Positions 9,993-40,206 of a stretch of DNA of 57,434 nt are shown piece by piece. The notes under the pieces were generated by a model. The model searched no databases. It saw only the letters and a program-made list of their open reading frames with translations, and was not told where the DNA came from. Made by a program: the position numbers and the translations under genes. Positions within the stretch are counted from its first letter, which is position 1, and each line of letters starts with the position of its first letter. Source of the DNA: Nitrosopumilaceae archaeon AB1(1) (GTDB lineage: Archaea > Thermoproteota > Nitrososphaeria > Nitrososphaerales > Nitrosopumilaceae); contig CP136752.1 of assembly GCA_033471095.1 (NCBI GenBank), forward strand, positions 67,838 through 125,271, given 5' to 3'.

Positions 9993-10026
9993 GAAATGAG
10001 ATAATGATTTAGTTTAAAATGTTTTG

Positions 10027-10416: not shown

Positions 10417-10500
10417 AAATAGAGAAAATCAGCATATTCTTATATTCCTATCTAGTATGAAAACGCGATCTTAAAATTTGGATACGTATAATATTGTATA

Positions 10501-20183: not shown

Positions 20184-20660
20184 TCATACCTTGAGATGAA
20201 AGAGTCCACCGGCAGTAATAATTTTTTGTATAATTTCAGGAAATGGTTTTATAGAATGAGTAGTGTTTTGAGTAGTGTTTGTTAATTTGTTCTCATCTAA
20301 ATTTATAGCAATTTCATCACCGTCGGAAATAGAATTGTATGTATTAGCATCAATCTCTATCGGGAGTAGAAATGCTCCATCTACACTATTTCGATAAAAA
20401 ATTCTAGCAAAAGATACGGCGATAACTGCCTTTATTCCACTATGAGACAGAGTTATTGGAGCGTGCTCTCGACTAGAACCACAACCAAAGTTTTTACCTG
20501 CCACCACAAATGTAGCTTTTTTAGAATGAAAATCAGGATCTAAACCTTCCATAGCATGTGTTGCAAGTTCAGCATAATCATGAATCTTCAGATATGTACC
20601 AGGTATGATAACATCAGTGTCGATATTATCACGATCATATTTTACCACTTTTCCATTCAA
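20184..20660 (-). CDS. Archaeal-type IPMI/homoaconitase small subunit
   Basis: A 158-residue protein starting at a TTG that overlaps the preceding gene's TGA. It contains NIDTDVIIPGTYLK and [17 protein letters not shown], the swivel domain of archaeal two-subunit isopropylmalate isomerase/homoaconitase. It is intact although its large subunit partner is frameshifted. In Nitrososphaerota an enzyme of this family is needed both for leucine and for the LysW-type alpha-aminoadipate route, so this pair might serve the second. The substrate cannot be told from sequence alone. Confidence 0.85.
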   Translation of the reverse strand: MNGKVVKYDRDNIDTDVIIPGTYLKIHDYAELATHAMEGLDPDFHSKKATFVVAGKNFGCGSSREHAPITLSHSGIKAVIAVSFARIFYRNSVDGAFLLPIEIDANTYNSISDGDEIAINLDENKLTNTTQNTTHSIKPFPEIIQKIITAGGLFHLKV

Positions 20661-21930
20661 AGAAAATCCCTCGGATCAGTAATTTTTCCAGTAATGGCAG
20701 AGGCAGCAGCTGACAAGAGGTGATGCAAGATATGTCTGTGAATCAATATCCCCCATTCTGCCAGGAAAGTTTCTGTTTGTCGTACTAATGCAAATTTCGT
20801 CTTTTCCCAATACCCCCATATGCGCTCCACAGCACGCTCCACACGTTGGAGGACCGATTGTGGCCCCAGCGCTCAAAAAAAGTTGTATTAGACCTTTATC
20901 CAAAGCCCTCTGATAGATAGATATTGCAGCTGGAAGAATTTGTGTACGAATTTTTACAGTTCTGCCCTTTAAGATTTTAGCTGACGGCAACCAGATCTTC
21001 GAATTTTGCACCAGTGCACGAACCAATGTATGCTTTGTCCAACTCAACGTTAGGAGCCTCACGCACAGGAGTGGTATTTGCCGGAGAGAATGGTTTTGCT
21101 ACAATAGGCTCCATGGTAGACGCATCATAATCAATCACTTTAGAGTATTGTGCGTCATCATCTGAATGAAGCGTCTTCACATTAGTAGCTCCGTGTTGTG
21201 TGAGATAATCTACAGTCTTTTGATCAGATTCCACTATGCCATTTTTAGCACCTGCCTCTGTAGTCATATTTGTAAGGGTAAGTCTCTCTTCCACAGACAT
21301 TACATCTATACCGCTACCACCAAATTGTAGTGTCTTGTAGGTTCCGCAATCAGTACCATGATCACCAATAATTTTAAGAATAAAATCTTTAGCCATAACA
21401 AAAGGTGGTAATTCTCCATCAAGATTGATCAGAATAGTTTCTGGAACCTTGAACCATATATTACCATTCAACAATACATATGCAATGTCAGTGTGACCTA
21501 ATCCACATGCAAATGCTCCAAGAGCTCCAGTTGTATTTGTGTGAGAGTCACCACCAACATACACTTCACCAGGTAAAACTAGTGCTTCTTCATGTGACAG
21601 AGTATGACAAATACCATGTTGGCCTAGACCATACTTGAAGTGTTTCTTTATTCCATATTGTTTAGTAAATTTTGATAATTTGTTAATATTTTCAGCAGAT
21701 ATTTTTTCGGCACTAGGAACAAAGTGATCTTCGGCCACCCAAACTTTGTCAGGGGAGTGAAGTTTAGAGACATCAATTCCTTGTTTGGATAGTTTATCAA
21801 ATACTTTGATCACACCAGGTCCAGATACATCGTGTAACATGACTTTGTCTACATTTGCAAATATGACATCATCTGGAGATACACTAGTCTTGCCTGATGC
21901 TCTAGCAAGAATTTTTTCTGTAATATTCAT
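20657..21930 (-). pseudogene. Archaeal-type IPMI/homoaconitase large subunit split by two +1 frameshifts
   Basis: Joined across frames this is a complete aconitase-family large subunit of about 424 residues: VGGDSHTNTTGALGAF, AYIGSCTGAKFEDL (cluster Cys), PTCGACCGAHMG (two more), TTNRNFPGRMG, and the C-terminal TGKITDPRDFL. The first frame (from 21930) ends at a TAA right after FEDLVAVS. The second covers the Cys-x-x-Cys part, and the third the last 20 residues. Both shifts are +1 and both lie in the same heptamer GTCAGCT (minus strand; 20979-20985 and 20708-20714). Dropping the A gives GTC-GCT and restores exact family spacing. It may be a pseudogene, a recoded gene or a base error. Confidence 0.85.
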
Positions 21931-23118: not shown

Positions 23119-24058
23119 GGCTACCGGACAAAACTCTATGTATAGAATCATTTGATATTACTAGTGCCCCATCAGGGTCAAGTCGTAATGCCTTACCAGT
23201 TATAGTAGATTGTAAAGTGGTAACAGTAACCATCTTACCTATGGTAGAAGAAAGACCAGTCCAATCATTTATGATTTTATCATGATCTTTACCAATCATG
23301 TTAAATGTGAACTCTATATTACGCAGTATACTTTGAATAAATTCTATACGACTTCCAGAGTAATTAAGACTAGCAACGTCTACCGATTCAGACATATTCT
23401 TTGATATCTCTTTGGCATTTACATTAAGATTAATTCCTATGCCAATTACCATATAGGAGATTATTTCTTGTGCCATGACTGAATCGATTAGAATACCTGC
23501 AACTTTTTTATCACCAATCATAATATCATTTGGCCATTTCAAATTTACAGAAATCCCAATGATACTTTGTATTGCATTTGCAATAGCTAGAGAAATACAC
23601 GCCGGTACAAGTGTGCTATTAATCGGCTCAAAATTTGGTTTTATAATTATAGACATCCAAATTCCACCCGGTGGAGATATCCATTGTTTGTCTTGTCTTC
23701 CACGACTATGTGTTTGAGTTTTAGCAATTATTACGGTGCCATTCTCAAGAGGGTTTGTTGCCATCTCTATGGCTATATCTTGAGTAGATTTTACCTCATC
23801 CATATAGTAAATTCTATTTCCCATCAAACGAGTATTAAGATTATTTTGAACCTCCCACGGTAACAAATCATCAGGGATTGACACTAGTGTAAGATTATCA
23901 GTTATATCATACCCCAACGCCTTTAAGGTTTTTACGTTATTCTCAATTTCAGAGGATTTCAAATTTAGTAAATCAACATTGGGTTTAACAGTATCTTCAG
24001 AATTCTTTTTTAAAAGATTGACAAATTTTCCTAATTGGCTAAAAGATGTGTGAATCAA
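23108..24058 (-). CDS. birA: Biotin-protein ligase (BirA/BPL)
   Basis: A 316-residue biotin ligase. The catalytic domain starts around residue 83, with YYMDEVKSTQDIAIE, the loop THSRGRQDKQW (canonical G-R-G-R is S-R-G-R here), and VNLKWPNDIMIGDKKVAGILID. A C-terminal SH3-like segment is present. About 75 N-terminal residues may be a degenerate helix-turn-helix. The target is biotin carboxyl carrier protein of acetyl/propionyl-CoA carboxylase of the 3HP/4HB carbon-fixation cycle. ATGA overlap with the upstream regulator. Confidence 0.92.
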   Translation of the reverse strand: MIHTSFSQLGKFVNLLKKNSEDTVKPNVDLLNLKSSEIENNVKTLKALGYDITDNLTLVSIPDDLLPWEVQNNLNTRLMGNRIYYMDEVKSTQDIAIEMATNPLENGTVIIAKTQTHSRGRQDKQWISPPGGIWMSIIIKPNFEPINSTLVPACISLAIANAIQSIIGISVNLKWPNDIMIGDKKVAGILIDSVMAQEIISYMVIGIGINLNVNAKEISKNMSESVDVASLNYSGSRIEFIQSILRNIEFTFNMIGKDHDKIINDWTGLSSTIGKMVTVTTLQSTITGKALRLDPDGALVISNDSIHRVLSGSLTF

Positions 24059-24564
24059 AAACCAATATCAAAGTCAAATCTGCTATCGTCCATACCACCA
24101 TCGTCTATTCCATCTCCGCCATAACCATCAGGAATACTTTCAGTTGGGATATAGTCTGTCATTGTTGAACCAATCATACTGAACATCATTGAAAACATCA
24201 CCATGTCAATGATTCCAAAAAATAACATCGTTGGTAGAATAGAACGATTACTATCCATAAATTGTCGAACATCTTTCTTATTACCAGATTCATAGGCAGT
24301 TGCCATTTTGCTCCAATTTTGTTCCATTACTTGTATTTTTACATCCAATTCATCATCACCGCGTCTAGTTGTAGTGATTTCAATTTTTTTACCCAACCAA
24401 CCACTCTTTTCTTCAACTCTGATCATATGATTTTTCTCAAGGCGCTCAAGGGCAGAATTGATATCGGTAGACGGTAATTTAGTCATGTTTTTAATTTTAT
24501 TAAATTTCTTACATCCACGCTTAATTGCTCCTAAAACAGTAATTTCTATAGTATCATCATTCAC
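24055..24564 (-). CDS. Winged-helix protein with C-terminal membrane segment
   Basis: A 169-residue protein. Residues 1-70 form a winged helix (ITVLGAIKRGCKKFNKIKNM, then the recognition helix STDINSALERL). Residues about 112-135 are a Met-rich hydrophobic helix (TMLFFGIIDMVMFSMMFSMI), and the tail is Gly/Asp-rich, ending in DFDIGF. A membrane-bound regulator is a possibility. It is cotranscribed with birA, whose control it might influence; this is inference. Confidence 0.65.
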   Translation of the reverse strand: MNDDTIEITVLGAIKRGCKKFNKIKNMTKLPSTDINSALERLEKNHMIRVEEKSGWLGKKIEITTTRRGDDELDVKIQVMEQNWSKMATAYESGNKKDVRQFMDSNRSILPTMLFFGIIDMVMFSMMFSMIGSTMTDYIPTESIPDGYGGDGIDDGGMDDSRFDFDIGF

Positions 24565-24607
24565 GATTTATAGATATATCATGATGTTAAAAATGTTAGT
24601 TTGTACA

Positions 24608-24949
24608 TTAACTTATCAAATTTGATTTAAAATTAAATATTAAATAATATGGAGGATTGATAATGTGATTAAATTCAATAAAATATAATTTTTCTAAAAT
24701 AAATTTATGCTCAAACTTCAAATTATATCCTACCGGTATAAAATCAAAATCATAACTACTAACAATATTTGTTTGTTGCATAAACTGATCTAACATGGTT
24801 TTTTCATCTGATTCCCATTCTTTTAGAATATGTATATCTCCAATTAGTTTCCCTGTATTTCTTTCTAATTCTGCCCACTGTATTGTAATAATTTTATCCT
24901 TAACTTCATCTAAACCCGTTGTCTCTATATCTAAATAATAACTAGTCAA
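24608..24949 (-). pseudogene. DnaQ-like exonuclease, truncated, spanning the left edge of the tandem element
   Basis: A 113-residue reading frame starting YYLDIETTGLDEVKDK (ExoI Asp/Glu), with ILKEWESDEKT and then FIPVGYNLKFEHK, which corresponds to ExoII. The related intact gene at 11014 has 234 residues, so the ExoIII half is missing. The 16-bp boundary repeat (24691-24706) lies inside this frame: the N-terminal part belongs to the repeated unit and the last about 33 residues are unique flanking sequence. The N-terminal part recurs at 31542-31784. Probably the remains of a viral exonuclease. Confidence 0.65.
24691..24706 (+). repeat. 16-bp boundary repeat, left
   Basis: TTTCTAAAATAAATTT. 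It is the left edge of copy A and differs at one position from the junction and right copies. It could be an attachment-site core or a microhomology used in tandem duplication. Confidence 0.75.
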
Positions 24950-25265
24950 ATCTATTATTATTAAACAATTATGGCTTTAACCATTTCCCAAAAAGTATTT
25001 AGCATACTTCCCTTTTAAGATAAACCATTTTTCACTCTAGGTTTGTTTAATTATTACTATACTGATAATGAAACGGAGAATGGCCACACTAATGACACGT
25101 ATTGTGCATTAAAGATTGTGTTCCAGTTTAAACGAATACTGCCTCAAAACGATGAACTAACTTATGTGACCATTAATGGCCAATTCTCAATTTTCTATAC
25201 TATACACTAGTAATTAATCATTTATTGAAAATTTTACGCTATGTTTTAATATAAATTATTTTTTA
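24950..25265. promoter_or_regulatory. Divergent regulatory region with inverted repeat
   Basis: 316 AT-rich bases between the minus-strand exonuclease fragment and the plus-strand structured block. It contains an 11-bp inverted repeat with one bulged base (25076-25086 and 25176-25187, GAGAATGGCCA against TGGCCAATTCTC). The same sequence recurs at 31785-32100. Confidence 0.5.
25244..25258 (+). promoter_or_regulatory. Candidate TATA box of the structured RNA, copy A
   Basis: TTTTAATATAAATTA resembles an archaeal TATA element. With normal spacing, transcription would start at about 25270-25280, right at the abrupt change from AT-rich sequence to the structured block. Confidence 0.45.
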
Positions 25266-26622
25266 AAAGTTCGGGGAGGAAAACCCCTATTCATCAACAA
25301 AGCTCTGCCAAGAGCTCGCTTCATAGGTTATCACTCTAATTTCGCTTTTGCGCGCTTGCTTGCTGCATTAATTTTAACGCATTCATATCGCCAAACCCAT
25401 CTACATACAATTCTCTTTTTATGGATGCAGTTTGTTTTTTCTGCATTCATTTTTCAGATGTATTGATGAAATGAATGGAGTGCCTGGGCTGCTCGTAGAG
25501 TATAAAGACGTGAACCTCGGGCCCCATATGTGGAGATTAAGGACGTGAATCTATACTCCTTGATTGGACGCTCATTCATTTCCACCAAATGGATTCGTTT
25601 CATCATTCGTTGGAATGATCAAAATGAATTCAAGTCTGCCACTTGGAGAGATTACGTGCTCCTACTCTTCCAACATTATTTCAAAGTCATTTTGATCAAA
25701 ATGACTTCGAACGTGTGCCACTTGGAGAAATTACTTTTCTCTCTTCAAGTGGGCAATTTTTGTCCAACTCCCTAGCGAGTTCCACCGGAATGGACAAGGA
25801 GAAGTTGGACAAAACAAAGACTTTCTTTTTTTGATGGAAATGCATGGCACGCGGACTGTTGTCGCTCTCTCCCTAGTATCTCAATGATACTAAAAAAACG
25901 CACAGTATCTCCACAATTATGGGGGTGCTGTGCGTTTACTTTTACCCATCGAAAAAACAGCTGATTGTTTTCTGTGTTTTTGAATAAGCTCAAAAGTAAG
26001 AGGCGCAAACATGGGGGGCTGGATACACATGATGACGGTGTCCACCTCCATCCAAACTCAATCCCTCTATTACCCCACTTAAAAAAAACATGGAGTACAG
26101 AAGGATAGGATGGACATCCCTTTCATGTGTGTCTCTTACCTGTTTATTGGTAATTTTTCAAAAAAACTACACATGAAGGTGATGCCAATACCCGTTGATT
26201 CATACTTGTTCTGTTAGATGAATGTGAGCAGTGAAGGATAATATGCCTGAGTATTCTTTCACTGTCCCCATAGGAAGAGACGGGTGGTACTTGGTAATCA
26301 AATACTATCTGTCGCTCTATAATCCTTATGTTGAATTTTTGGGTGCCTAGCGGGCGCGAGGCATAAATCTCTCTGAGGCGGGCTCTGAGAAAACCAATGC
26401 CTGGTTTCTATACTGTTTTACCAGTTTACTAGGGGATACCGAAGTTGCCCTCGGGGGGTCTATCTCCCTAAAGTGGAACGGTGTTTGTTAGGTTGCGTTG
26501 TTGGCGCAACCAACAAGGATTATCATTTGCAGAGGGAGTGTACGGAGTAGAGTGTTAACCCTACGGGGATATTTGGTACATCCTTGCCCAATGTTAACCC
26601 GACGGTATGAGAAACCCGCTTT
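25266..26622 (+). ncRNA. Candidate giant structured noncoding RNA, copy A (about 1.36 kb)
   Basis: No convincing protein is encoded here on either strand. The block is far richer in G+C than its surroundings (94 of 180 bases in 26341-26520, against 16 of 60 in the start of the next gene) and is packed with hairpins: 25301-25316, 25421-25450, 25602-25619, 25684-25707 (24-bp perfect palindrome), 25760-25769/25803-25812, 25875-25891, 25898-25912/25921-25935 (15 bp), 26122-26130/26169-26177, 26229-26240/26252-26264, 26391-26407, 26485-26497/26505-26516. Several stems contain G-T pairs that form G-U on the plus strand but A-C on the other, which orients the RNA. The ends can pair (25266-25275 with 26615-26622). 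Not recognised as a known class. Confidence 0.65.
26554..26605 (+). repeat. Short direct repeat at the 3' end of the structured RNA
   Basis: GTTAACCCTACGG (26554-26566) and GTTAACCCGACGG (26593-26605) differ by one base and lie 39 bases apart; the same pair occurs in copy B. They might be alternative pairing partners or protein-binding sites. Confidence 0.55.
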
Positions 26623-26635
26623 ACTTTGATACCCA

Positions 26636-26650
26636 TTTATAAAAATAAAA
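26636..26650 (+). promoter_or_regulatory. Candidate TATA box for the terminase ATPase gene, copy A
   Basis: An A/T run TTTATAAAAATAAAA lies about 45-58 bases before the TTG start of the terminase-like gene, just past the last hairpin of the structured block. It may separate the two transcription units. Confidence 0.35.
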
Positions 26651-26693
26651 TGATTTTATTCTTTAGTTCCTTTAATGATAAATAATTTTACCA

Positions 26694-27731
26694 TTGGTTA
26701 AAAAGAAGATATCAATATACCCACTCTTAGAGTCTGAAAAAATAGATGAAATTGAATCATCTGTTATACTTGGAGGTAATGCACTATGTGATAAATTAAG
26801 TACATTACAGTTCTGGTGTGGTAATAATACCTTACATCATACCAAAGAAAATTACCATGAAGATTATTGTTGTTTAACACATGTAGTTGGCCTACCACAA
26901 CATCCAGGAACTGGACTATCAGAACCACTGACACCATTTCAGGTGGATTTTTTTAATAAAGTAAATGATACAGTCTCCCAGCCAGAAGGTGTGGAAAAGT
27001 CTGACTGGTTGAGATTAGCCCATAAATTCCATCTTAACAAAGGACGTCAGATGGGATTTACAGAAATTGTACTAAGAGTAATTCAGTACTATTGTTTTTC
27101 TAGATATGCAGGAGCTAACGTTGGAATCATGGCAGCCACCAATGGTAATCTGGCACGAAAAGACCTTAGACGATTTTACAGACTATTTGCAAATATCAAA
27201 CCAGTATTAGAAGGACCACTAAAAGGCAGGGATATCAAACTAGTAAATGACACAGTTGTTGAGGCATTTCCAGCTAGTGAGGAAGCACTCACAGGGGATA
27301 CCAAATACAAATGCATATTCATGGATGAGGCAGCAAAATGGAAGCTAGTTGATGACACACCAGTCTTTAACAGTATCATGCCAATTGTGAGAAGTAACGG
27401 TTCTGATTTGTTTTTGGTATCTACTCCCAAAGGCCCAATCAAAATGTTTTATAAAATATTCAAAGACCCTCAAGACTTTGTTATGATGGTATATGATATT
27501 TGGGAGGCAGAAGGCAACCTGTTTACCAAAGCACAAATAGAAGACATGATTGCCTCCTCCAAAGAAGATCCCAATCAAGAGTATTTATGTAAATTTACCA
27601 TAGGCCAGGATTCAATATTTGGAATGATGGCAGACCAGAACAGAGGGGATGGATCATGGGGCGAATGGAATGTAGAGGATGATGATGAGGATGATCATTA
27701 CGTTGAAGATGATGATGATATAGAATGGTGA
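26694..27731 (+). CDS. Terminase large-subunit-like ATPase, copy A (no nuclease domain)
   Basis: A 345-residue protein with the ATPase core of viral DNA-packaging motors: PFQVDFFNKV, a Walker A-like HLNKGRQMGFTE, a Walker B YKCIFMDEAAKW with catalytic Glu, and the coupling motif VSTPKG. It ends after FGMM with a very acidic tail (DDDEDDHYVEDDDDIEW) instead of the RNase H-like nuclease domain. A separate nuclease-like fragment is encoded at 31388, about 3.7 kb downstream. It starts at a TTG 72 bases after the structured RNA. It differs from copy B at five residues in the Walker A region (EIVLRVIQYY against EIVPRVIQDH, and A to V nearby). Confidence 0.85.
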   Translation: MVKKKISIYPLLESEKIDEIESSVILGGNALCDKLSTLQFWCGNNTLHHTKENYHEDYCCLTHVVGLPQHPGTGLSEPLTPFQVDFFNKVNDTVSQPEGVEKSDWLRLAHKFHLNKGRQMGFTEIVLRVIQYYCFSRYAGANVGIMAATNGNLARKDLRRFYRLFANIKPVLEGPLKGRDIKLVNDTVVEAFPASEEALTGDTKYKCIFMDEAAKWKLVDDTPVFNSIMPIVRSNGSDLFLVSTPKGPIKMFYKIFKDPQDFVMMVYDIWEAEGNLFTKAQIEDMIASSKEDPNQEYLCKFTIGQDSIFGMMADQNRGDGSWGEWNVEDDDEDDHYVEDDDDIEW

Positions 27732-27814
27732 TAAATCAAAAATCTAATTAAATTAATTATTGGCTTTAAGCATTTTGGATCAGCTATATAGAAAAGTATC
27801 TTCAAAGTATTATA

Positions 27815-30800
27815 ATGCAAAAAAATAAACTAGTATTCATTGCAGCAATGGCACTAACTGTAATTGGCGCAACAACGTTTATTTTCTTAGAGGAATCAAT
27901 TTCTGTCTCTGATAGAATGGAGACAGAAAATACCGAAACTGTAAATGAAATCTCAATTAAAACAATAACCATGACAACTAAAAGTGGTCATTATAATACA
28001 GGTAGTCATATATTATGGCCAAAGGTTTCACTAGATTTTCCAACACAGGTACAAAAGGGAACTCCATTTGATGTAACTGCACATTGGACATGGGTAGAAT
28101 ATGAAATAGATGAAAATACAGGTGAGTATGTAATAGATGACGATACAGGCGAACTTGAAATATCAGAAACTGCATCTCAATATGACAACGAACTTGTTTC
28201 ATACGCTCATGATACTGAGCTTCAAACAAGTGTATTTAGTGGAACTGATTTTATAAATAATTCTGACTTTGCAATGACTGGTAATTCTACAGGATATCAG
28301 CTTGGTTGGGGTAATAATTACAATTTTTACGAACAACCAATGATTTATGATGAAGTGGGTCCTCACAGTAAAACCCTAACATATCAAATCGACAGTTTAC
28401 TTGATTTACAATATTTTCATGTTATAGGAGTTACTATAGGATTTGGTAATAATTTTGATTTGTATCTGCAGGAAAGTCCACTAGGGACGATAAACATTTC
28501 TGATTCTCCATTTGTACCTAGTGGTATGCAGAGCCCTCCTAATCCCGATGCAGTTAGATTAGCTGATTAAGACAGAATGCATGAATACGCACTTGCAGAG
28601 ATGGATGCAACTGGAAAAACATTTGATGAGTATTATTATCCTGAACCAACTGCAGATGAATTAGAAGATCTTGAAAAAGCGAGACAATTTGAATTTGAGA
28701 ATAGTAATGGTAAAACTATAGAGGATATTCCTGAAACTGCACAATATATCATGGATAATAATATTTCCAATATTGTGGATTATCTATTTAATGAATCATA
28801 CACCTTTGAGTTTATCGATGAATTTTTTACTTAATATCCTGACTTGATAGGACAGAGTTTCGAAAATATATTTTCTTACTTTTTACTTCCTTATGCATAT
28901 GCAGCTAGTGATGATATTAGCGTACGAGGATATTTTTATTTAAATGATGAGAATGAACGTTTAACATCTGCACAAAATGTAAAAGTTTGTGTATTAGAAT
29001 ATAATTCGGTTCTTCCTGCATATGCACAACAATTCAACAACCAAGAAATTTGTTCTACCACTAATAGTAGAGGGTATTATTCTTTAACAGTGCCAAATAT
29101 AGATATGGATAATCGTAACAGTCAACCTGATGTTAAAGTTATTTTTTCTTTAGAGAATGATAATTTCACAATTAAAAATTCAGATAGGATTAATATCAAT
29201 CAGGTTTTTTTTACAGCTAAACAAAAATCAAACGTGTCAGGCAATTCAGGATATATGGGATTGCATTATCCTTCAACTAGTCCTGATAACTATTCTGGAT
29301 TTCCAAGGGAAAAAATTTCAACAGCTTACTTGATCTATGATGAATTAAATTATGGATATGATAAAATAAATGAATATTTTGGTTATTCTGTGCCTTTTGT
29401 GACTGTAGAATGGGGTGATGAAAGATTAATAAAATCAACATTCTTCGACCATGAAACAAATACAATCATACTTAATCATAGGGTTGTTCCAACTTACAAT
29501 CATTTTATTGACGATGCTAAATCTCCTAATACAATTATGCATGAATACACACATAAAATACATCACTCAGTTTATGGTTTAGATTATAACACAGATTTAC
29601 CGTTAGGTACTGGATGTGATGACCATGGAGTAAATAGAATATCAAGTAATGAATGTGCATGGACAGAAGGGTTTGCACATTTTATGTCTGCTGTAGTGTA
29701 TAATGATCCTGTTTTAAAATTTTCATCATACTTACAATCAATTAACATCGAGAATGCAAAATATAATACATCACCAGACGGAACTGGAGGAACATCATTT
29801 CCAACAAATTCCTTAAACTTGGGAACTGCAAACGAGGGTTGGGTTGCATCTGCATTATGGGATATTTATGATGATTCCTTAGAGAGTGGAGATGATATGA
29901 ATGAGCAAAAATCAAAATTATGGATTGCATTTACTGATGTAAAAGAATCAACTGAAAATACTTATCCTGCATCCTCAATTTTAGAATTTAAAAATGATTG
30001 GAATGATAATGGTTATTCTAGTCTAGATAATGTGTTTAGTTTGAATAATTTAATTTCTGAAACCACTGTAACACCAACAGGCAGTACGATATTTTCTGAT
30101 GACTTTGAAGGTACACTATCTAACTGGACCTTAACTGGAGATGATGAGGATTGGGAGTTAAAACGAGGTAGCCAAACTGGTACTACAGGATATGTTGCAT
30201 CTTCTGATGATTGTGACAGAAATTGTTACATGGAGTCAATTACTATTGATGCAAGCCAAGCTGTAACACTTGGCTTTGATAGATACATAGATACAGGAGT
30301 TGATAGAAATGAAGGACTTAAAGTTTCAGTATCTACTGATGATGGCGCATCATATACTCAACTTGCATTTTACTCTCAAAATAATAACAAAGATGACTCT
30401 ATTTGGCACACTGAAACACTAGACATATCATCATATCAATCAAGTACATTCAAACTAAAATTTACAGGTGTATCGTCATACTATGATGATATTGTCAAGA
30501 TAGATAATGTTACTATCACCGGATCTTCTGAAAGTACTACAACATCATCCTCATCATTTGATGAGAACTTTGATGACTTAACAAATTGGAGCAAGTCTGG
30601 TGATAACAGATGGAATGTAGTATCTTCTTGGTATGAGGATTTACCACCAAACGGAGGTAATTTTATTTCTTCAAAAAATTGTGACAACTCTTGCATACTA
30701 ACCAGTGATACAATAGACTTGTCATCTTATTCATCTGCAACACTAGAGGTATCAAGATTTGTGGATAAATCCTTGGATAGAGGTGAATATCTATCCATTG

Positions 30801-30994
30801 AGGTGTATAATGGAAATACCTGGACTGAAATTGCAAAGTGGGGTGCAGATAACAATGAAGATACTGATGAATGGGAAGATGAATCTATAAACATCACAAG
30901 ATATTTGGATGACAACTTTAAGATAAAAATCACATCTTTGCAGAGCAGTAGTAGTGAAGATACAGGTCTAGACTATATCAGAATAGCTAATTGA
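27815..30994 (+). pseudogene. Secreted HExxH metalloprotease with MAM-like domains, copy A, two in-frame TAA codons
   Basis: One continuous frame of 1060 codons interrupted only by TAA at 28568-28570 and 28832-28834. It starts with a signal or anchor helix (KLVFIAAMALTVIGATTFIF). After a divergent N-terminal part comes the zinc site HEYTH at 29540-29554 with a downstream CAWTEGFAHF Glu, the gluzincin arrangement. The C-terminus has two beta-sandwich modules of about 140 residues, each starting near a FxxNWTLTG/LTNWSKSG motif. In copy B the second stop position reads AAA in EKYP. Likely a surface or virion protease that lost function, unless stops are read through. Confidence 0.8.
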
Positions 30995-31066
30995 TTATGA
31001 TATTTTGTAACATTTTAGCACACCAGCTAACCACAACTTAATACTATCTTCATATTATAATTTACC

Positions 31067-31240
31067 ATGGATATATTCCTAGACAAATTAGATGAGATTA
31101 TAAAATCATATGAGGAGATTGTACTTGATGATGCCACACCACAACAGACATCAGTATTGTACTCTATGATACTACTTGATTTGATGTATCTCAGATATGA
31201 TCCAACTGGAGAGAAGAGAAAACTATGGGCGATATCCTAA
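31067..31240 (+). CDS. Small acidic protein, copy A
   Basis: 57 residues from an ATG (MDIFLDKLDEIIKSYEEIVL), helical and acidic, ending in KLWAIS. It lies 70 bases after the metalloprotease and overlaps the next tiny gene by 16 bases. Identical in copy B. Size and position suit a viral accessory gene; function unknown. Confidence 0.5.
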   Translation: MDIFLDKLDEIIKSYEEIVLDDATPQQTSVLYSMILLDLMYLRYDPTGEKRKLWAIS

Positions 31241-31317
31241 AATCAGTATACATTGCATTATTTGGCAGTTTTGGAATTGGGATGATGGTTGGATATCTTA
31301 TTGGATTGTTAAAATAA
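31225..31317 (+). CDS. 30-residue single-span membrane peptide, copy A
   Basis: MGDILKSVYIALFGSFGIGM followed by MVGYLIGLLK: one membrane helix with glycine zipper spacing. It overlaps the preceding gene in a different frame. Similar tiny membrane proteins act as holin-like or coat peptides in viruses, but nothing here proves this. Identical in copy B. Confidence 0.45.
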   Translation: MGDILKSVYIALFGSFGIGMMVGYLIGLLK

Positions 31318-31387
31318 TTACTATAACTGTAATTACTTCTACAATACCTGATGCCCAAAAGAAGTATCACAAAGAGTGAAAAAATTA

Positions 31388-31576
31388 ATGTCAATAGGGG
31401 AGCGAAAGGCTAGTACGATTCGAATAATTTGTGGTGATCCAGGAAGAACCAACGACCCATTTGGTGTAGTTGGTGTAGAGTTAGACTTGGATACTCGAAG
31501 AATTCGAATAAGACTTGCAAGACAATTTCTAAAATTAATTTATGCTCAAACTTCAAATTATATCCTACCGGTATAA
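31388..31576 (+). pseudogene. Terminase nuclease-domain N-terminal fragment, copy A
   Basis: From an ATG the protein reads IRIICGDPGRTNDPFGVVGV, like the first strand of the RNase H-fold nuclease domain of terminases (Asp after the strand, then D-P-F-G-V-V-G). It is cut after LARQF, where the unit ends. The last residues (YAQTSNYILPV) come from the following copy and are junction artefacts. This would be the nuclease half missing from the ATPase gene at 26694. Confidence 0.55.
31526..31541 (+). repeat. 16-bp boundary repeat, A/B junction
   Basis: TTTCTAAAATTAATTT, located where the terminase-nuclease fragment of copy A meets the exonuclease fragment of copy B. The sequence to its left matches the left side of the right boundary, and the sequence to its right matches the right side of the left boundary, as expected of a head-to-tail junction. 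Confidence 0.8.
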
Positions 31577-31784
31577 AATCAAAATCATAACTACTAACAA
31601 TATTTGTTTGTTGCATAAACTGATCTAACATGGTTTTTTCATCTGATTCCCATTCTTTTAGAATATGTATATCTCCAATTAGTTTCCCTGTATTTCTTTC
31701 TAATTCTGCCCACTGTATTGTAATAATTTTATCCTTAACTTCATCTAAACCCGTTGTCTCTATATCTAAATAATAACTAGTCAA
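31542..31784 (-). pseudogene. DnaQ-like exonuclease N-terminal fragment, copy B
   Basis: The same N-terminal sequence as at 24608-24949 (YYLDIETTGLDEVKDK to GYNLKFEHK), ending at the A/B junction; beyond it the frame runs antisense to the nuclease fragment and is meaningless. A by-product of the tandem duplication. Confidence 0.7.
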
Positions 31785-32078
31785 ATCTATTATTATTAAA
31801 CAATTATGGCTTTAACCATTTCCCAAAAAGTATTTAGCATACTTCCCTTTTAAGATAAACCATTTTTCACTCTAGGTTTGTTTAATTATTACTATACTGA
31901 TAATGAAACGGAGAATGGCCACACTAATGACACGTATTGTGCATTAAAGATTGTGTTCCAGTTTAAACGAATACTGCCTCAAAACGATGAACTAACTTAT
32001 GTGACCATTAATGGCCAATTCTCAATTTTCTATACTATACACTAGTAATTAATCATTTATTGAAAATTTTACGCTATG

Positions 32079-32093
32079 TTTTAATATAAATTA
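32079..32093 (+). promoter_or_regulatory. Candidate TATA box of the structured RNA, copy B
   Basis: The same TTTTAATATAAATTA as in copy A, at the same distance from the structured block. Confidence 0.45.
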
Positions 32094-32100
32094 TTTTTTA

Positions 32101-33458
32101 AAAGTTCGGGAGGAAAACCCCTATTCATCAACAAAGCTCTGCCAAGAGCTCGCTTCATAGGTTATCACTCTAATTTCGCTTTTGCGCGCTTGCTTGCTGC
32201 ATTAATTTTAACGCATTCATATCGCCAAACCCATCTACATACAATTCTCTTTTTATGGATGCAGTTTGTTTTTTCTGCATTCATTTTTCAGATGTATTGA
32301 TGAAATGAATGGAGTGCCGGGGCTGCTCGTAGAGTATAAAGACGTGAACCTCGGCCCCATATGTGGAGATTAAGGACGTGAATCTATACTCCTTGATTGG
32401 ACGCTCATTCATTTCCACCAAATGGATTCGTTTCATCATTCGTTGGAATGATCAAAATGAATTCAAAAGTCTGCCACTTGGAGAGATTACGTGCTCCTAC
32501 TCTTCCAACATTATTTCAAAGTCATTTTGATCAAAATGACTTCGAACGTGTGCCACTTGGAGAAATTACTTTTCTCTCTTCAAGTGGGCAATTTTTGTCC
32601 AACTCCCTAGCGAGTTCCACCGGAATGGACAAGGAGAAGTTGGACAAAACAAAGACTTTCTTTTTTTGATGGAAATGCATGGCACGCGGACTGTTGTCGC
32701 TCTCTCCCTAGTATCTCAATGATACTAAAAAAACGCACAGTATCTCCACAATTATGGGGGTGCTGTGCGTTTACTTTTACCCATCGAAAAAACAGCTGAT
32801 TGTTTTCTGTGTTTTTGAATAAGCTCAAAAGTAAGAGGCGCAAACATGGGGGGGCTGGATACACATGATGACGGTGTCCACCTCCATCCAAACTCAATCC
32901 CTCTATTACCCCACTTAAAAAAAACATGGAGTACAGAAGGATAGGATGGACATCCCTTTCATGTGTGTCTCTTACCTGTTTATTGGTAATTTTTCAAAAA
33001 AACTACACATGAAGGTGATGCCAATACCCGTTGATTCATACTTGTTCTGTTAGATGAATGTGAGCAGTGAAGGATAATATGCCTGAGTATTCTTTCACTG
33101 TCCCCATAGGAAGAGACGGGTGGTACTTGGTAATCAAATACTATCTGTCGCTCTATAATCCTTATGTTGAATTTTTGGGTGCCTAGCGGGCGCGAGGCAT
33201 AAATCTCTCTGAGGCGGGCTCTGAGAAAACCAATGCCTGGTTTCTATACTGTTTTACCAGTTTACTAGGGGATACCGAAGTTGCCCTCGGGGGGTCTATC
33301 TCCCTAAAGTGGAACGGTGTTTGTTAGGTTGCGTTGTTGGCGCAACCAACAAGGATTATCATTTGCAGAGGGAGTGTACGGAGTAGAGTGTTAACCCTAC
33401 GGGGATATTTGGTACATCCTTGCCCAATGTTAACCCGACGGTATGAGAAACCCGCTTT
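32101..33458 (+). ncRNA. Candidate giant structured noncoding RNA, copy B
   Basis: The second copy of the structured block, about 1.36 kb. It differs from copy A by a handful of changes (one G fewer near the 5' end, T to G and loss of one G in the region matching 25483-25524, two extra A after GAATTC, one extra G in a G run). None disrupts the hairpins listed for copy A, and the closing pairs AAAG/CTTT and CGGG/CCCG are kept. Confidence 0.63.
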
Positions 33459-33529
33459 ACTTTGATACCCATTTATAAAAATAAAATGATTTTATTCTTT
33501 AGTTCCTTTAATGATAAATAATTTTACCA

Positions 33530-34567
33530 TTGGTTAAAAAGAAGATATCAATATACCCACTCTTAGAGTCTGAAAAAATAGATGAAATTGAATCATCTGT
33601 TATACTTGGAGGTAATGCACTATGTGATAAATTAAGTACATTACAGTTCTGGTGTGGTAATAATACCTTACATCATACCAAAGAAAATTACCATGAAGAT
33701 TATTGTTGTTTAACACATGTAGTTGGCCTACCACAACATCCAGGAACTGGACTATCAGAACCACTGACACCATTTCAGGTGGATTTTTTTAATAAAGTAA
33801 ATGATACAGTCTCCCAGCCAGAAGGTGTGGAAAAGTCTGACTGGTTGAGATTAGCCCATAAATTCCATCTTAACAAAGGACGTCAGATGGGATTTACAGA
33901 AATTGTACCAAGAGTAATTCAGGACCATTGTTTTTCTAGATATGCAGGAGTTAACGTTGGAATCATGGCAGCCACCAATGGTAATCTGGCACGAAAAGAC
34001 CTTAGACGATTTTACAGACTATTTGCAAATATCAAACCAGTATTAGAAGGACCACTAAAAGGCAGGGATATCAAACTAGTAAATGACACAGTTGTTGAGG
34101 CATTTCCAGCTAGTGAGGAAGCACTCACAGGGGATACCAAATACAAATGCATATTCATGGATGAGGCAGCAAAATGGAAGCTAGTTGATGACACACCAGT
34201 CTTTAACAGTATCATGCCAATTGTGAGAAGTAACGGTTCTGATTTGTTTTTGGTATCTACTCCCAAAGGCCCAATCAAAATGTTTTATAAAATATTCAAA
34301 GACCCTCAAGACTTTGTTATGATGGTATATGATATTTGGGAGGCAGAAGGCAACCTGTTTACCAAAGCACAAATAGAAGACATGATTGCCTCCTCCAAAG
34401 AAGATCCCAATCAAGAGTATTTATGTAAATTTACCATAGGCCAGGATTCAATATTTGGAATGATGGCAGACCAGAACAGAGGGGATGGATCATGGGGCGA
34501 ATGGAATGTAGAGGATGATGATGAGGATGATCATTACGTTGAAGATGATGATGATATAGAATGGTGA
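33530..34567 (+). CDS. Terminase large-subunit-like ATPase, copy B (no nuclease domain)
   Basis: 345 residues, the same as copy A except for a few positions between about 125 and 142, including EIVPRVIQDH in place of EIVLRVIQYY. Walker A-like GRQMGFTE, Walker B CIFMDEAA and STPKG are intact, and the acidic tail is identical. All listed substitutions lie just after the Walker A region, so one copy may be mutated in a functional place. Confidence 0.85.
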   Translation: MVKKKISIYPLLESEKIDEIESSVILGGNALCDKLSTLQFWCGNNTLHHTKENYHEDYCCLTHVVGLPQHPGTGLSEPLTPFQVDFFNKVNDTVSQPEGVEKSDWLRLAHKFHLNKGRQMGFTEIVPRVIQDHCFSRYAGVNVGIMAATNGNLARKDLRRFYRLFANIKPVLEGPLKGRDIKLVNDTVVEAFPASEEALTGDTKYKCIFMDEAAKWKLVDDTPVFNSIMPIVRSNGSDLFLVSTPKGPIKMFYKIFKDPQDFVMMVYDIWEAEGNLFTKAQIEDMIASSKEDPNQEYLCKFTIGQDSIFGMMADQNRGDGSWGEWNVEDDDEDDHYVEDDDDIEW

Positions 34568-34650
34568 TAAATCAAAAATCTAATTAAATTAATTATTGGC
34601 TTTAAGCATTTTGGATCAGCTATATAGAAAAGTATCTTCAAAGTATTATA

Positions 34651-37600
34651 ATGCAAAAAAATAAACTAGTATTCATTGCAGCAATGGCACTAACTGTAAT
34701 TGGCGCAACAACGTTTATTTTCTTAGAGGAATCAATTTCTGTCTCTGATAGAGTAGAGGCAGAAAATATTGACATATCAACTATACAATATGACTTTCCA
34801 TTACATGGTGAATCTGAGAATATAGGAATACCATCAATATATGGTGGAGAACTTGATTTTACAATATCTAATCTACCAAAAATAGGTGAGACTGCTGAAA
34901 TTAAAATGAATTATACTCAAGGAAATAATATAGTTCTTCAAGTTCTAGCCAATCAATATGCAATTGATGGAGTTCCAGAACAATTTTATCGGTCCATATC
35001 AATTAGTGATAATTTTGAGTTTGTAGGCCAAGATAATGTTATTACTTCTGAATTTGAAAATAGAATATATCAAATAATTAGAAGTCCTATAGATACAAGT
35101 AATCCTAATGAAAACATTTCCTTGTCTGCAACTATCAGAGCAGTTTCAGAAGGTATGGGTAATATCACTGGTGGTGGTGCAATAACCTCTACATATATTC
35201 AAGTACATGTAGGAGAAAATGAAACTCTACTCAAAGAAGACTATCTAAATTTACATCCTGAAATGAGACCACAACGAACACCACCTCAACAAGAACAAAT
35301 AGAATTATGTTATGGTCAGCCATGTCCACCACTTGATGGACTTCCTTTTGGTGGTAATGGTACAACTACAATCACTCCTTCTACTGAAGAAGGATATCGT
35401 ACTTTCCTAAAGGATGTAATGAAAATGAGTGATGAAGAAATCGAGGAGTTGGTTCAAAAAGAATATCCAGACCCAGATGACTCTAATCCCTCTATTGAAA
35501 GATTTTCTAGTGAATTAGAAACTTTTGGATCTAGTGGTCCAGGTATTGCACATACATATCCACATTATAACATTGACATGCCAAAATACGTTACAGTAGG
35601 CGATGCATTTGATATTAATATTAATTACAGTTTTGTTGAGATTGATGAAGATGATGGATCAATTGATACACGAATACAAGATAATGGTCCCAATGTATAT
35701 CTTGACGATGTTCATTCTGGTGTAAAATTAATTACATATTTCCCAGAAGAATTTGAATTACAAAATAAAGATGACCTTGATTTTATTAGTTATAGTGTTG
35801 GTCGTGATTCTGAATGGGATAGACATACTACCTTTTCTACTATTGGATTATTCTATAATCTTGAAGGGCCAAAAACTATAACTTACTCATTTATCCTAAA
35901 CAGCACTGTTAATTATCCAAACAATGAATTTCAAATGGCACTTGATGTTATTTTAGATAAATATTATCTTAATCAAATAAGCCCAGATAGATATGAAATT
36001 TCTAAAACTCTAGTAGTTCCAAACTTTGGTCCTGAAGGAGAACCACAACCACCTTATCCTGGACGTATTACTTCATCATATCCTCCTATTTCTATTGGTA
36101 ATGATTCAACGAACACACCATCTGTTGATTCAATAGAATCTTTGATTTTACTTGCAGAAGCTGATGAAATTGATGAAATAGTAGAAGATTTTGGTTTTGA
36201 AACTATCGAAGAATTTTATTACTCTATATTCTCATCTGAACTCGTAGATGAATTCCTAGAGAAATACCCACAGTACAGTAATGCTAACTTTATTCTTCCA
36301 ACATTAAACTGGATACTACCAGAAGCATATGGACAAAGTTTTCAACAATTCATTGTACAAGGCCAAGTCTTAATTGAAAATGATTCTGGTGACTTTGTAG
36401 TACCTGAAGGTGAATTTGAAGTATGTGCATATGATAAAAATTTACTACTACCTAATGAAGACCCAACTCCTCTAACTGAATACAATAGTAATGATGAAGC
36501 TTGTGATGATTTGAATAGTCGTGGTTATTTTTTAATGAGGGTTTCACCAACTGATCCAGATAATGATGGTACAACCCCTGATATTATGGTGGGTTTACCT
36601 TTAAAAAATAGTGGTGTGTTGATGTTTGATAATTTGAATATGCCGGAAGAAACAATTATTTATTCTGAACCAAGGGAGAACGTATCCTCAATTCTTGTGA
36701 ATTTTGTAAGTGATGAAAGAATTGATATTGATAATGAAAATTTTTTAAAATCTTACAAAGTATTTGGTACGATAAATGAAACACTAGAAACATTCCATGA
36801 TTTGGGGTTTAGAACTAATACACAATTACAAGTTTTGTATGATCCAATCACCACAACTGAATTTCGATTAATGTATCAATCAAATCTAATATCTCTTACA
36901 GATTATTATCATCCCACTAATGGTGAATTCATACGAAGTATAGTTGACCATCCTGTAGCAATCTCTCATGAAGTAGGACATTTTATTCAAGATAAGACTT
37001 ACAAAAATGTAAAGGGTGATCAAGGTAGAGTTCCATCTTGTGCAGGAATTATCGGTACACATGGTGACCATATAACAACAAACCCTCAATGTGCATGGAG
37101 TGAAGGATGGGCAACTTTTGTAGGACTATTAACATCTGATAGTTCTGAACATACCACATTTGTTACAAATGATGCTATAAATTCTGAGTCTGGAACAAAT
37201 AATGGAGTAAAATTTCCAACTAGAAACGGATATTCTGTTGAAGGTTGGGTAACTGCTGCACTTTGGGATATTCATGATATAGTAGATGAAAGGAGTTCTC
37301 GTTCATCTTATGATTGTATAGATGGCCAAACACAAAATTTATGGAATGCATTTAGTACAGATACTGCACCAAGTGGACCAAATTACATTGCAAAAAATAT
37401 GAACGAATTTAAAGATGATTGGAATGCATTGGGATATACCAGTCTTATTCCTTTGTTTAATTTGAATCATTTAACTGGTCCAATTACACCTCCTACAACA
37501 GATGTCGTAATATTTAGTGATGAATTTAATTCGTTTACAAACTGGACACTAACAGGAGATGATGAAGATTGGGAGTTAGTATCTGATACTACTGGATATG

Positions 37601-38403
37601 TTGCATCTTCTGATGATTGTGACAGAAATTGTTACATGGAGTCAATTACTATTGATGCAAGCCAAGCTGTAACACTTGGCTTTGATAGATACATAGATAC
37701 AGGAGTTGATAGAAATGAAGGACTTAAAGTTTCAGTATCTACTGATGATGGCGCATCATATACTCAACTTGCATTTTACTCTCAAAATAATAACAAAGAT
37801 GACTCTATTTGGCACACTGAAACACTAGACATATCATCATATCAATCAAGTACATTCAAACTAAAATTTACAGGTGTATCGTCATACTATGATGATATTG
37901 TCAAGATAGATAATGTTACTATCACCGGATCTTCTGAAAGTACTACAACAACATCATCCTCACCATTTGATGAGAACTTTGATGACTTAACAAATTGGAG
38001 CAAGTCTGGTGATAACAGATGGAATGTAGTATCTTCTTGGTATGAGGATTTACCACCAAACGGAGGTAATTTTATTTCTTCAAAAAATTGTGACAACTCT
38101 TGCATGCTAACCAGTGATACAATAGACTTGTCATCTTATTCATCTGCAACACTAGAGGTATCAAGATTTGTGGATAGTTCATTGGATGGTGGTGAATATC
38201 TATCCATTGAGGTGTATAATGGAAATACCTGGACTGAAATTGCAAAGTGGGGTGCAGATAACAATGAAGATACTGATGAATGGGAAGATGAATCTATAAA
38301 CATCACAAGATATTTGGATGACAACTTTAAGATAAAAATCACATCTTTGCAGAGCAGTAGTAGTGAAGATACAGGTCTAGACTATATCAGAATAGCTAAT
38401 TGA
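34651..38403 (+). CDS. Secreted HExxH metalloprotease with MAM-like domains, copy B (intact)
   Basis: A 1250-residue protein. The N-terminal 33 residues and the last about 270 are nearly identical to copy A; the core is different and longer. It has a signal/anchor helix, two or more beta-rich N-terminal regions, an acidic helical segment around residues 500-545 (ESLILLAEADEIDEIVEDFG), then a segment alignable with copy A beginning LNWILPEAYGQSF, the zinc site HEVGH (36967-36981) with downstream CAWSEGWATF Glu, and two C-terminal beta-sandwich modules with Cys pairs (DDCDRNCYM, CDNSC). Probably a surface-attached protease or adhesin. Confidence 0.85.
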   Translation: MQKNKLVFIAAMALTVIGATTFIFLEESISVSDRVEAENIDISTIQYDFPLHGESENIGIPSIYGGELDFTISNLPKIGETAEIKMNYTQGNNIVLQVLANQYAIDGVPEQFYRSISISDNFEFVGQDNVITSEFENRIYQIIRSPIDTSNPNENISLSATIRAVSEGMGNITGGGAITSTYIQVHVGENETLLKEDYLNLHPEMRPQRTPPQQEQIELCYGQPCPPLDGLPFGGNGTTTITPSTEEGYRTFLKDVMKMSDEEIEELVQKEYPDPDDSNPSIERFSSELETFGSSGPGIAHTYPHYNIDMPKYVTVGDAFDININYSFVEIDEDDGSIDTRIQDNGPNVYLDDVHSGVKLITYFPEEFELQNKDDLDFISYSVGRDSEWDRHTTFSTIGLFYNLEGPKTITYSFILNSTVNYPNNEFQMALDVILDKYYLNQISPDRYEISKTLVVPNFGPEGEPQPPYPGRITSSYPPISIGNDSTNTPSVDSIESLILLAEADEIDEIVEDFGFETIEEFYYSIFSSELVDEFLEKYPQYSNANFILPTLNWILPEAYGQSFQQFIVQGQVLIENDSGDFVVPEGEFEVCAYDKNLLLPNEDPTPLTEYNSNDEACDDLNSRGYFLMRVSPTDPDNDGTTPDIMVGLPLKNSGVLMFDNLNMPEETIIYSEPRENVSSILVNFVSDERIDIDNENFLKSYKVFGTINETLETFHDLGFRTNTQLQVLYDPITTTEFRLMYQSNLISLTDYYHPTNGEFIRSIVDHPVAISHEVGHFIQDKTYKNVKGDQGRVPSCAGIIGTHGDHITTNPQCAWSEGWATFVGLLTSDSSEHTTFVTNDAINSESGTNNGVKFPTRNGYSVEGWVTAALWDIHDIVDERSSRSSYDCIDGQTQNLWNAFSTDTAPSGPNYIAKNMNEFKDDWNALGYTSLIPLFNLNHLTGPITPPTTDVVIFSDEFNSFTNWTLTGDDEDWELVSDTTGYVASSDDCDRNCYMESITIDASQAVTLGFDRYIDTGVDRNEGLKVSVSTDDGASYTQLAFYSQNNNKDDSIWHTETLDISSYQSSTFKLKFTGVSSYYDDIVKIDNVTITGSSESTTTTSSSPFDENFDDLTNWSKSGDNRWNVVSSWYEDLPPNGGNFISSKNCDNSCMLTSDTIDLSSYSSATLEVSRFVDSSLDGGEYLSIEVYNGNTWTEIAKWGADNNEDTDEWEDESINITRYLDDNFKIKITSLQSSSSEDTGLDYIRIAN

Positions 38404-38475
38404 TTATGATATTTTGTAACATTTTAGCACACCAGCTAACCACAACTTAATACTATCTTCATATTATAATTTACC

Positions 38476-38649
38476 ATGGATATATTCCTAGACAAATTAG
38501 ATGAGATTATAAAATCATATGAGGAGATTGTACTTGATGATGCCACACCACAACAGACATCAGTATTGTACTCTATGATACTACTTGATTTGATGTATCT
38601 CAGATATGATCCAACTGGAGAGAAGAGAAAACTATGGGCGATATCCTAA
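38476..38649 (+). CDS. Small acidic protein, copy B
   Basis: 57 residues, the same as the copy at 31067-31240 (MDIFLDKLDEIIKSYEEIVL start). It follows the intact metalloprotease by 72 bases and overlaps the membrane peptide gene. Function unknown. Confidence 0.5.
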   Translation: MDIFLDKLDEIIKSYEEIVLDDATPQQTSVLYSMILLDLMYLRYDPTGEKRKLWAIS

Positions 38650-38726
38650 AATCAGTATACATTGCATTATTTGGCAGTTTTGGAATTGGGATGATGGTTG
38701 GATATCTTATTGGATTGTTAAAATAA
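38634..38726 (+). CDS. 30-residue single-span membrane peptide, copy B
   Basis: The same as the copy at 31225-31317: a single hydrophobic helix with Gly-rich face. Conservation of such a short frame in both copies says little because the whole region is duplicated. Confidence 0.45.
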   Translation: MGDILKSVYIALFGSFGIGMMVGYLIGLLK

Positions 38727-38796
38727 TTACTATAACTGTAATTACTTCTACAATACCTGATGCCCAAAAGAAGTATCACAAAGAGTGAAAAAATTA

Positions 38797-38955
38797 ATGT
38801 CAATAGGGGAGCGAAAGGCTAGTACGATTCGAATAATTTGTGGTGATCCAGGAAGAACCAACGACCCATTTGGTGTAGTTGGTGTAGAGTTAGACTTGGA
38901 TACTCGAAGAATTCGAATAAGACTTGCAAGACAATTTCTAAAATTAATTTTTTGA
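38797..38955 (+). pseudogene. Terminase nuclease-domain N-terminal fragment, copy B
   Basis: 52 residues with GDPGRTNDPFGVVGV, identical to copy A up to LARQFLKLI, then a TGA in unique flanking sequence. Both copies are therefore cut at the same place; the rest of the nuclease domain is not in the window. Confidence 0.55.
38935..38950 (+). repeat. 16-bp boundary repeat, right
   Basis: TTTCTAAAATTAATTT, identical to the junction copy. Beyond it the sequence becomes unique (TTTTGATATTT). Confidence 0.75.
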
Positions 38956-39016
38956 TATTTTTAAAGGAATTAGTATAAAGATCATAGATGATACACACAT
39001 CATCAGATAAAAATCA

Positions 39017-39096
39017 CTCTAAATCTGTGATTAAATTTCAGTGTTAAAGCGAAAATTACATTAAACAAGGTAATGTTTATAATGTTTAGAGTGTAA
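39017..39096. repeat. Inverted repeat upstream of a small gene
   Basis: CACTCTAAA and TTTAGAGTG, a 9-bp perfect inverted repeat with about 60 bases between the arms, in the AT-rich spacer right of the tandem element. It may be an operator or the trace of a mobile element; weak evidence. Confidence 0.3.
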
Positions 39097-39106
39097 TTAA
39101 CTAATA

Positions 39107-39436
39107 TTGTCTTTTGAAAAAATTATAGAAAAAATAAGAACTGAGAATGATAATCCAAATATACTCAGTGAAGAAAAAGCAGCTGAAAAAATAGAGGAAT
39201 ATGCAAATAAAGAAAAGAAAAATACTAACAAAAAAATTGAAATCAAATTTAAGGGTTTTGATGGAATAGAGATTACCTGTTCTCCGGACAATATAAAATA
39301 TTTAGAGAAATCGGTTGAAAAACATAAACCGAATCTGAAATATTTAACTTATGAACGATACCAATATCAAATTAAAAAATTGGAAGCTAAAATCAAATAT
39401 GAAAATTTGAGAAAAGAAAGTACTAACACTAGATAA
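39107..39436 (+). CDS. Lys/Glu-rich helical protein, unknown
   Basis: 109 residues from a TTG start (MSFEKIIEKIRTENDNPN). It is strongly charged, with two helical stretches around a short strand segment IEIKFKGFDGIEITCS. No recognised family. It lies between the tandem element and the cyclase-like gene, so it may be accessory DNA. Confidence 0.5.
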   Translation: MSFEKIIEKIRTENDNPNILSEEKAAEKIEEYANKEKKNTNKKIEIKFKGFDGIEITCSPDNIKYLEKSVEKHKPNLKYLTYERYQYQIKKLEAKIKYENLRKESTNTR

Positions 39437-39464
39437 TTATAGTACTAAACTAAAAATCAAGGTA

Positions 39465-40206
39465 TCATTTCTTACAGAATGTAAAAAAATCCAAAGTATT
39501 ACGCCATTTAAGAGTAATAGAGATTGTACGCGCCTTTTTTAAATTATCTTTTATAAGGTTATGAAAGTAATCTGTTTTAGTCGATGCTTCTTGCACCATG
39601 AGTGGATATGCTGGCCAATTAATAGCCCAACCGCTTTTTTCTATACAAGTTTTTAAAGGTATATCATATTTTACATATATTTTATTACCGTATAAATCAA
39701 ATTTAGAAGAGTCTGTTTTATCAAGTATGTTATAAACACTAGGTGATGCTGAAATGCCAATCCATTGTTGTAAATTGTAATATTCGAGCTGCCTCATCTA
39801 TAGCTGGACCCAATATTGAGTTTTTGGTTTGTATTATTCGGCCATAACTTATACATCCACGAAAATTTATTCCTCGATACAAACTGTTAATCATAAATAC
39901 AATCAAAAATTTACCAACATTAACAACAGACGACTCTTTGGTATCTCCAAACACGGTAATACAAATGGTGTCTGAAAATACACGAAAATTAACTGTATAG
40001 ATTTTTTTGTCTAATATATTGTATATTTGTTCTTCAAACACAAGAAGTAATGTATCCCAAGTAGCTGCTACATCGATAGGATCATTTTTCCAAATATCTT
40101 TTGTTCCCAACCTATCTATTAAAATTAAAACACCCTCTTTGTCTGTCATAGATGGTTCTGTGGAAGAGTCTGAAGTTTTATGCACATAAGTAATTGATAT
40201 TATCAT
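39465..40206 (-). pseudogene. Class III nucleotidyl cyclase-like protein, frameshifted
   Basis: Two overlapping frames join into one protein of about 245 residues. The first part shows GVLILIDRLGTKDIW and FRVFSDTICITVFGD, placing two Asp residues as the metal ligands of class III adenylate/guanylate cyclases, then RGCISYGRIIQTKNSILGPAIDEAA. After a +1 shift near 39786 the frame continues EYYNLQQWIGISASPSVYN. The minus-strand bases read GCT-C-GAA at the shift. Homologs of this fold occur in signalling and in anti-phage Pycsar systems, but no effector gene is adjacent. Probably a decayed gene. Confidence 0.6.

Follow-up and report, generated by a model that had tools for sequence, protein, structure and literature searches.

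A non-coding block of ~1.37 kb, packed with hairpins, lies directly 5' of an intact TerL ATPase gene on an element that is virus-derived and integrated in the chromosome of a Nitrosopumilus-like ammonia-oxidising archaeon. Copy 1 of the block occupies positions 25266–26632 of the window, i.e., the whole stretch of 57,434 nucleotides analysed here, and is assigned to the + strand from a TATA-like motif only. We tentatively propose, as a reading that is quite possible, that the block is the gene of a long (~1.37 kb) element-encoded structured non-coding RNA, possibly serving the terminase. The fold excess (z of ~-8.4), the non-coding status, the island of high G+C, a hairpin at 25896–25937 whose G-U pairs favour the + strand and the location in the place of the small terminase subunit (TerS) speak for an RNA, whereas the equal folding of the two strands, the lack of a GNRA loop and the lack of a homolog speak against it.

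A GC-rich island without coding capacity

The G+C content of the block is 0.43 as compared to ~0.33. Along the sequence it climbs from 0.24 (24501–25000) through 0.34 and 0.41 to 0.44 (26001–26500) and falls again to 0.35. The best-frame codon score of the block averages -0.20, against a genic mean of 0.165 (genic 5th percentile, 0.018) and a value of -0.30 for shuffled sequence, and stop-free runs as long as its longest also occur in shuffled sequence. No similarity to TerS was found in any frame of the block (best E value of 0.12 by tblastn and of 0.86 by profile), and these tests together with the codon scores rule out a coding gene broken by frameshifts. The abrupt rise in G+C, the non-coding status and the more than ten strong hairpins that the initial annotation had described are all borne out, the hairpins numbering ~20. 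Its start of the block at 25266 stands, whereas its end at 26622 is better set at ~26632, where the last hairpin closes.

As had also been described, TATA-like elements lie on either side of the block, TTAATAT at 25246–25252 (+), ~20 nt 5' of it, and TTTATAA at 26636–26642 (+), between the block and terL; both are pattern matches only. Upstream, an imperfect inverted repeat, GAGAATGGCCACACTAATG ... CATTAATGGCCAATTCTC, spans 25076–25188 (+), with a predicted fold of -28.0 kcal/mol and a window z of -3.4 on the + strand.

Strong folding on both strands

When base pairs may span at most 120 nt, the block folds into ~20 consecutive local hairpins, many of them at -14 to -47 kcal/mol. A few longer-range helices (e.g., 25573–25589 with 25830–25846) are also predicted. 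Per kb, the block has 2.9 stems of at least 10 bp and the remainder of the window 0.24, a 12-fold difference in density. The MFE of the first 1000 nt is -316.9 compared to a shuffle mean of -249.0 (z of -8.4); over the whole block z ranges from -8.2 to -8.6 on the + strand and from -8.6 to -9.0 on the - strand, and four genic controls of the same length gave values of -1.6 to +2.0. The block is more stable than shuffled sequence, as would be expected of a large structured non-coding RNA, and its excess (~-8.4) is stronger than that of the host 16S rRNA (-5.5). A stability specific to the sense strand was sought in the block and was absent (z of -8.2 on + and -9.0 on -), in contrast to the 16S rRNA, for which the sense strand gave -5.5 and the opposite one -1.9. 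Likewise, none of the 27 hairpin loops predicted in the block is a GNRA loop, as compared to 5 of 33 in the host 16S rRNA. This strand-symmetry control means that fold strength alone is insufficient to show that the block is an RNA.

Within the block, a stem at 25639–25752 (+; direct repeat D1, helix list) has two 5' strands (TGCCACTTGGAGARATTAC at 25636 and 25715) that compete for a single 3' strand, and a double-hairpin domain at the 3' end (26448–26632, +; local fold) was the source of covariance model R1. The hairpin at 25758–25814 happens to fit the attC-like pattern GTCCAAC...GTTGGAC. An integron attC array would have repeated attC hairpins on either side of cassette ORFs, together with an integron integrase; in the block no ORFs lie between the hairpins, and no integrase was recognised among the island ORFs scanned.

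A symmetric z is expected of palindromic DNA, though some RNAs may behave likewise. The block could act at the level of DNA, as a cluster of palindromes in double- or single-stranded form, e.g., a pac-like packaging-initiation region by terL or a replication origin, an explanation that we regard as somewhat unlikely. Besides the strand-equal fold excess, the adjacency of terL, the inverted repeat just 5' of the block and direct repeats inside it (e.g., TGTTAACCCKACGG, at a spacing of 39 nt) are in line with such a site. However, by the standard of a pac site or an origin, 1.37 kb with ~20 different hairpins is both large and irregular; the tandem unit has no recognised replication gene, and G-U pairs are embedded in the stems. 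Internal G-U pairs make some of the strong hairpins more stable on the + strand, notably that at 25896–25937 (+; inverted repeat I1, helix list), the inner helix of which has three G-U pairs on + and over which windows gave z values of -4.5 to -4.7 on the + strand and of -2.3 to -3.3 on the - strand. Stem-embedded G-U pairs number 24 vs. 11 A-C pairs on the + strand, a weak + bias by a method that fails to recover the 16S structure, and folding free of G-U pairs did not separate the competing readings.

A duplicated, virus-derived element

The block resides in an island of ~15.8 kb (24565–40440) between a wHTH gene (24055–24564) and a CoA-binding gene (40443–40853). Since the homologues of these two genes lie ~100 nt apart in two relatives (G189 and G087, from tblastn coordinates in L132 and L136), the region of 24.6–40.4 kb is an insertion, located at a site that is conserved. 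By self-comparison it holds two tandem units on the + strand, one of 6835 bp (24691–31525) and one of ~7.4 kb (31526–38950) whose central cargo gene is another one, and the junction word TTTCTAAAAT recurs at 24691, 31526 and 38935. A 3.2-kb stretch that includes the block (24691–27932) equals 31526–34768 at 99.6%, and 30177–31541 equals 37583–38950 at 99.1%; the flanks of the units are shared at at least 99%, whereas the central cargo genes differ.

Copy 2 of the block (32101–33468, +) is near-identical to copy 1, with one substitution and four small indels between the two; two of the indels are in G runs, where sequencing error is possible. The two near-identical copies described previously are indeed present, yet as evidence they are weak. 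Because the duplication takes in entire units, of 6.8 and 7.4 kb, copy 2 does not represent independent conservation and says nothing specific on the block. Elsewhere in the window, an aconitase-family gene (20657–21930) is seemingly split into several ORFs, which with the G-run differences suggests indel errors of the assembly.

The TerL ATPase (26694–27731, +; 345 aa) appears intact, with the motifs KGRQMGF, MDEAAKW and TPKG, and its Walker-type motifs align with those of viral relatives. It matches Terminase_6N (4e-5) and the PHROG terminase large subunit (4e-17), and a profile that combines it with its relatives hits T4 gp17 (4.5e-8). Copy 2 of the gene (33530–34567, +) has four clustered base differences, which fall in one short segment and all apparently change amino acids (L to P, YY to DH, A to V). 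Of the nuclease half of TerL the element retains just the first 50 codons, at the end of a unit (31376–31525, +; GDPGRTNDPFG), in a fragment truncated at the unit junction and 44–47% identical to the nuclease ORF that follows TerL in L010 and L009. Between terL and this fragment sit secreted, metallopeptidase-like cargo proteins with HExxH motifs: that of unit 1 (28844–30994, +), with HEYTH in its translation, has no match in Pfam, PHROG or PDB, and that of unit 2 (34651–38403, +; 1250 aa), with HEVGH, has relatives in genomes of the family. A DEDD exonuclease (RNase_H_2; 24608–24949, -) is likewise truncated, cut at the unit junction (Pfam PF13482, E of 3.2e-6; PADLOC DEDDh, E of 2.1e-6). At 39465–40206 two overlapping reverse ORFs resemble one frameshifted gene that by eye is possibly nucleotide-cyclase-like and that has no Pfam or PADLOC match.

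Searches for relatives of the block

A cmscan of the window with 4227 Rfam families at gathering scores left the block unmatched and returned two tRNAs only, and a permissive scan of the block gave short matches at chance level. The initial annotation, which had suggested this check, did not recognise the block as a known class and considered that it may be undescribed; the outcome agrees with this. Known RNA families, including GOLLD, ROOL, OLE and HEARO, are ruled out by their covariance models at gathering score, as are group I and group II introns, for which the block has no Rfam intron ribozyme match. ARAGORN reports a 95-nt tRNA on the reverse strand at 47707–47801 with the anticodon TCA (labelled SeC), which possibly contains an intron or is misread.

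BLAST of the block against 400 genomes of the order and 250 of the family gave outside the host only short matches, of 27–58 nt (L005–L008, L106–L110), that did not extend, and in the same genomes the only hits of model R1 (3' domain) were the host copies. In terminase-bearing loci R1, R2 and nhmmer returned nothing, and scans of phages, plasmids and, by exact words, IMG/VR were empty or gave words that did not extend (17–18-mers in viral contigs L099–L104), apart from a single hit, L153. Genomes that carry relatives of the cargo proteins (Nitrosopumilus sp. LS_AOA, G156, and four others, G411, G246, G129 and G210) have no block detectable by BLAST. The search models are insensitive, being built from effectively one sequence, and a diverged homolog could escape them; rapid evolution may also have put the block beyond the reach of the homology tools used. 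No relative of the block was found, and it is covariation among homologs that defines classes of large structured RNA. In the host genome no further copy of any part of the block was found beyond the duplicate, which rules out a dispersed repeat or transposon remnants.

The lack of a relative would also suit fast-evolving or decaying non-coding debris, such as nested palindromic repeat remnants from the decay of a provirus, an origin that we consider unlikely. The neighbouring exonuclease and nuclease ORFs are truncated, the portal and one further protein of related viruses have no match in the host genome (weak negatives), and the two block copies have accumulated five small differences as compared to none, one at the junction aside, in the preceding 565 nt, all of which would be in line with decay. 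Yet neutral decay does not produce a z of ~-8.4, long stems are 12-fold rarer in the rest of the window, the TerL ATPase is intact and the host genome holds no other copy of any block part.

The place of the small terminase subunit

Relatives of TerL were drawn from IMG/VR and a contig of Nitrosopumilus sp. LS_AOA. In most of those examined the start of terL coincides with, or closely follows, the end of a short ORF that is taken as TerS from its position and size, the exceptions being L011/L120, with a helicase-like ORF 5' of terL, and a few loci with a gap of up to ~200 nt; none of the relatives examined has a GC-rich non-coding block 5' of terL. As a short TerS-like ORF adjoins terL in most relatives and the block lies there in the element, the block takes the place of TerS. 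These head-tailed thaumarchaeal viruses and proviruses (L113–L129 of IMG/VR; contig L047/L112 of Nitrosopumilus sp. LS_AOA) have TerL ATPases that are 42–71% identical and, as in the element, encode the nuclease in an ORF of its own that has a GDP motif close to the start. The element differs from them in that they have a TerS-like ORF before TerL, complete nuclease ORFs and no GC-rich block. In six of the thaumarchaeal virus contigs (L115, L116, L119, L121, L122 and L124) separate ORFs encode the ATPase and the nuclease of the terminase large subunit, and additional small genes often lie between the two.

A terminase scan of named genome contigs gave no close relative and, with a profile, Nitrosopumilus sp. 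LS_AOA only. In contig L047 of this MAG a decayed TerL fragment is followed, within 9891–10838, by the same cargo promoter and truncated signal peptide that the window has. This segment represents traces of the window's unit in a second genome, from which the block is missing.

A very long structured 5' leader that regulates terL mRNA in cis would fit a block directly 5' of terL on the same inferred strand, but it is improbable, given the separate TATA-like motif at 26636 between the two, the terL genes of relatives that lack the block, and a length of 1.4 kb that is far above that of usual leaders; since separate TATA-like motifs precede the block and terL, the block need not be a leader.

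A candidate RNA beside a packaging ATPase

In the structured-RNA reading that we tentatively favour, transcription would proceed from the TATA-like motif at 25246, starting near 25270 and ending near 26632, ahead of the TATA-like motif that terL has for itself. Such an RNA would form ~20 serial hairpins grouped by a few longer helices and might, speculatively, assist packaging or transfer of the element alongside the TerL ATPase, in trans or as a recognition structure. This packaging role is a speculation drawn from position alone, and the element has no complete nuclease. The initial claim of a giant archaeal RNA stands in so far as the block is structured, non-coding and GC-rich and lies on a virus-derived element; its RNA nature is put in doubt by the strand-equal fold, the absence of GNRA among 27 loops and the lack of a homolog. 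We consider it highly improbable that such an RNA replaces the small terminase subunit and, together with the TerL ATPase, recognises or moves the DNA of the element; if true, it would be a second, unrelated RNA component in a viral DNA-packaging motor.

Giant structured RNAs known from viruses or mobile elements belong mainly to bacteria and phages. By analogy, the nearest kin of the block in a possible mode of working would be GOLLD and ROOL, giant phage and prophage RNAs of unknown function, of which GOLLD often exceeds 800 nt (PMC12286853). The block resembles them in size class, in being structured and in its residence on a virus-like element. Unlike GOLLD and ROOL, which were defined by covariation across many relatives and often lie near tRNA islands, it has neither a relative nor an Rfam match, shows no strand bias of folding and no GNRA loop, and is found in an archaeal host with a terminase as neighbour. 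OLE RNA, of ~600 nt, has nucleotides that are highly conserved across species (PMC9723947). The likeness to OLE is that of a large structured bacterial RNA, from which the block, unmatched in Rfam, differs.

The pRNA of phi29 is much smaller than the block, and the phi29 ATPase is of another type than the TerL described here. It offers a conceptual analogy only, that of a structured RNA with a packaging ATPase, and the block has no Rfam match to pRNA. In NitKor-E1, a cryptic integrated element of Nitrosopumilus koreensis AR1, the terminase genes are the sole viral hallmarks, TerS lies immediately 5' of TerL and a tyrosine integrase is present (PMC6563490). The element described here is likewise a thaumarchaeal integrated element with terminase as its sole viral hallmark, but it has the block in the place of TerS and no recognised integrase.

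Should the block turn out to be a DNA site, a 1.37-kb cluster of hairpins next to terL would still be unusual as a packaging or origin region. As a candidate for an archaeal element-borne RNA, located by a packaging ATPase in the place of TerS, it would provide a genetic context in which the function of such an RNA can be tested.
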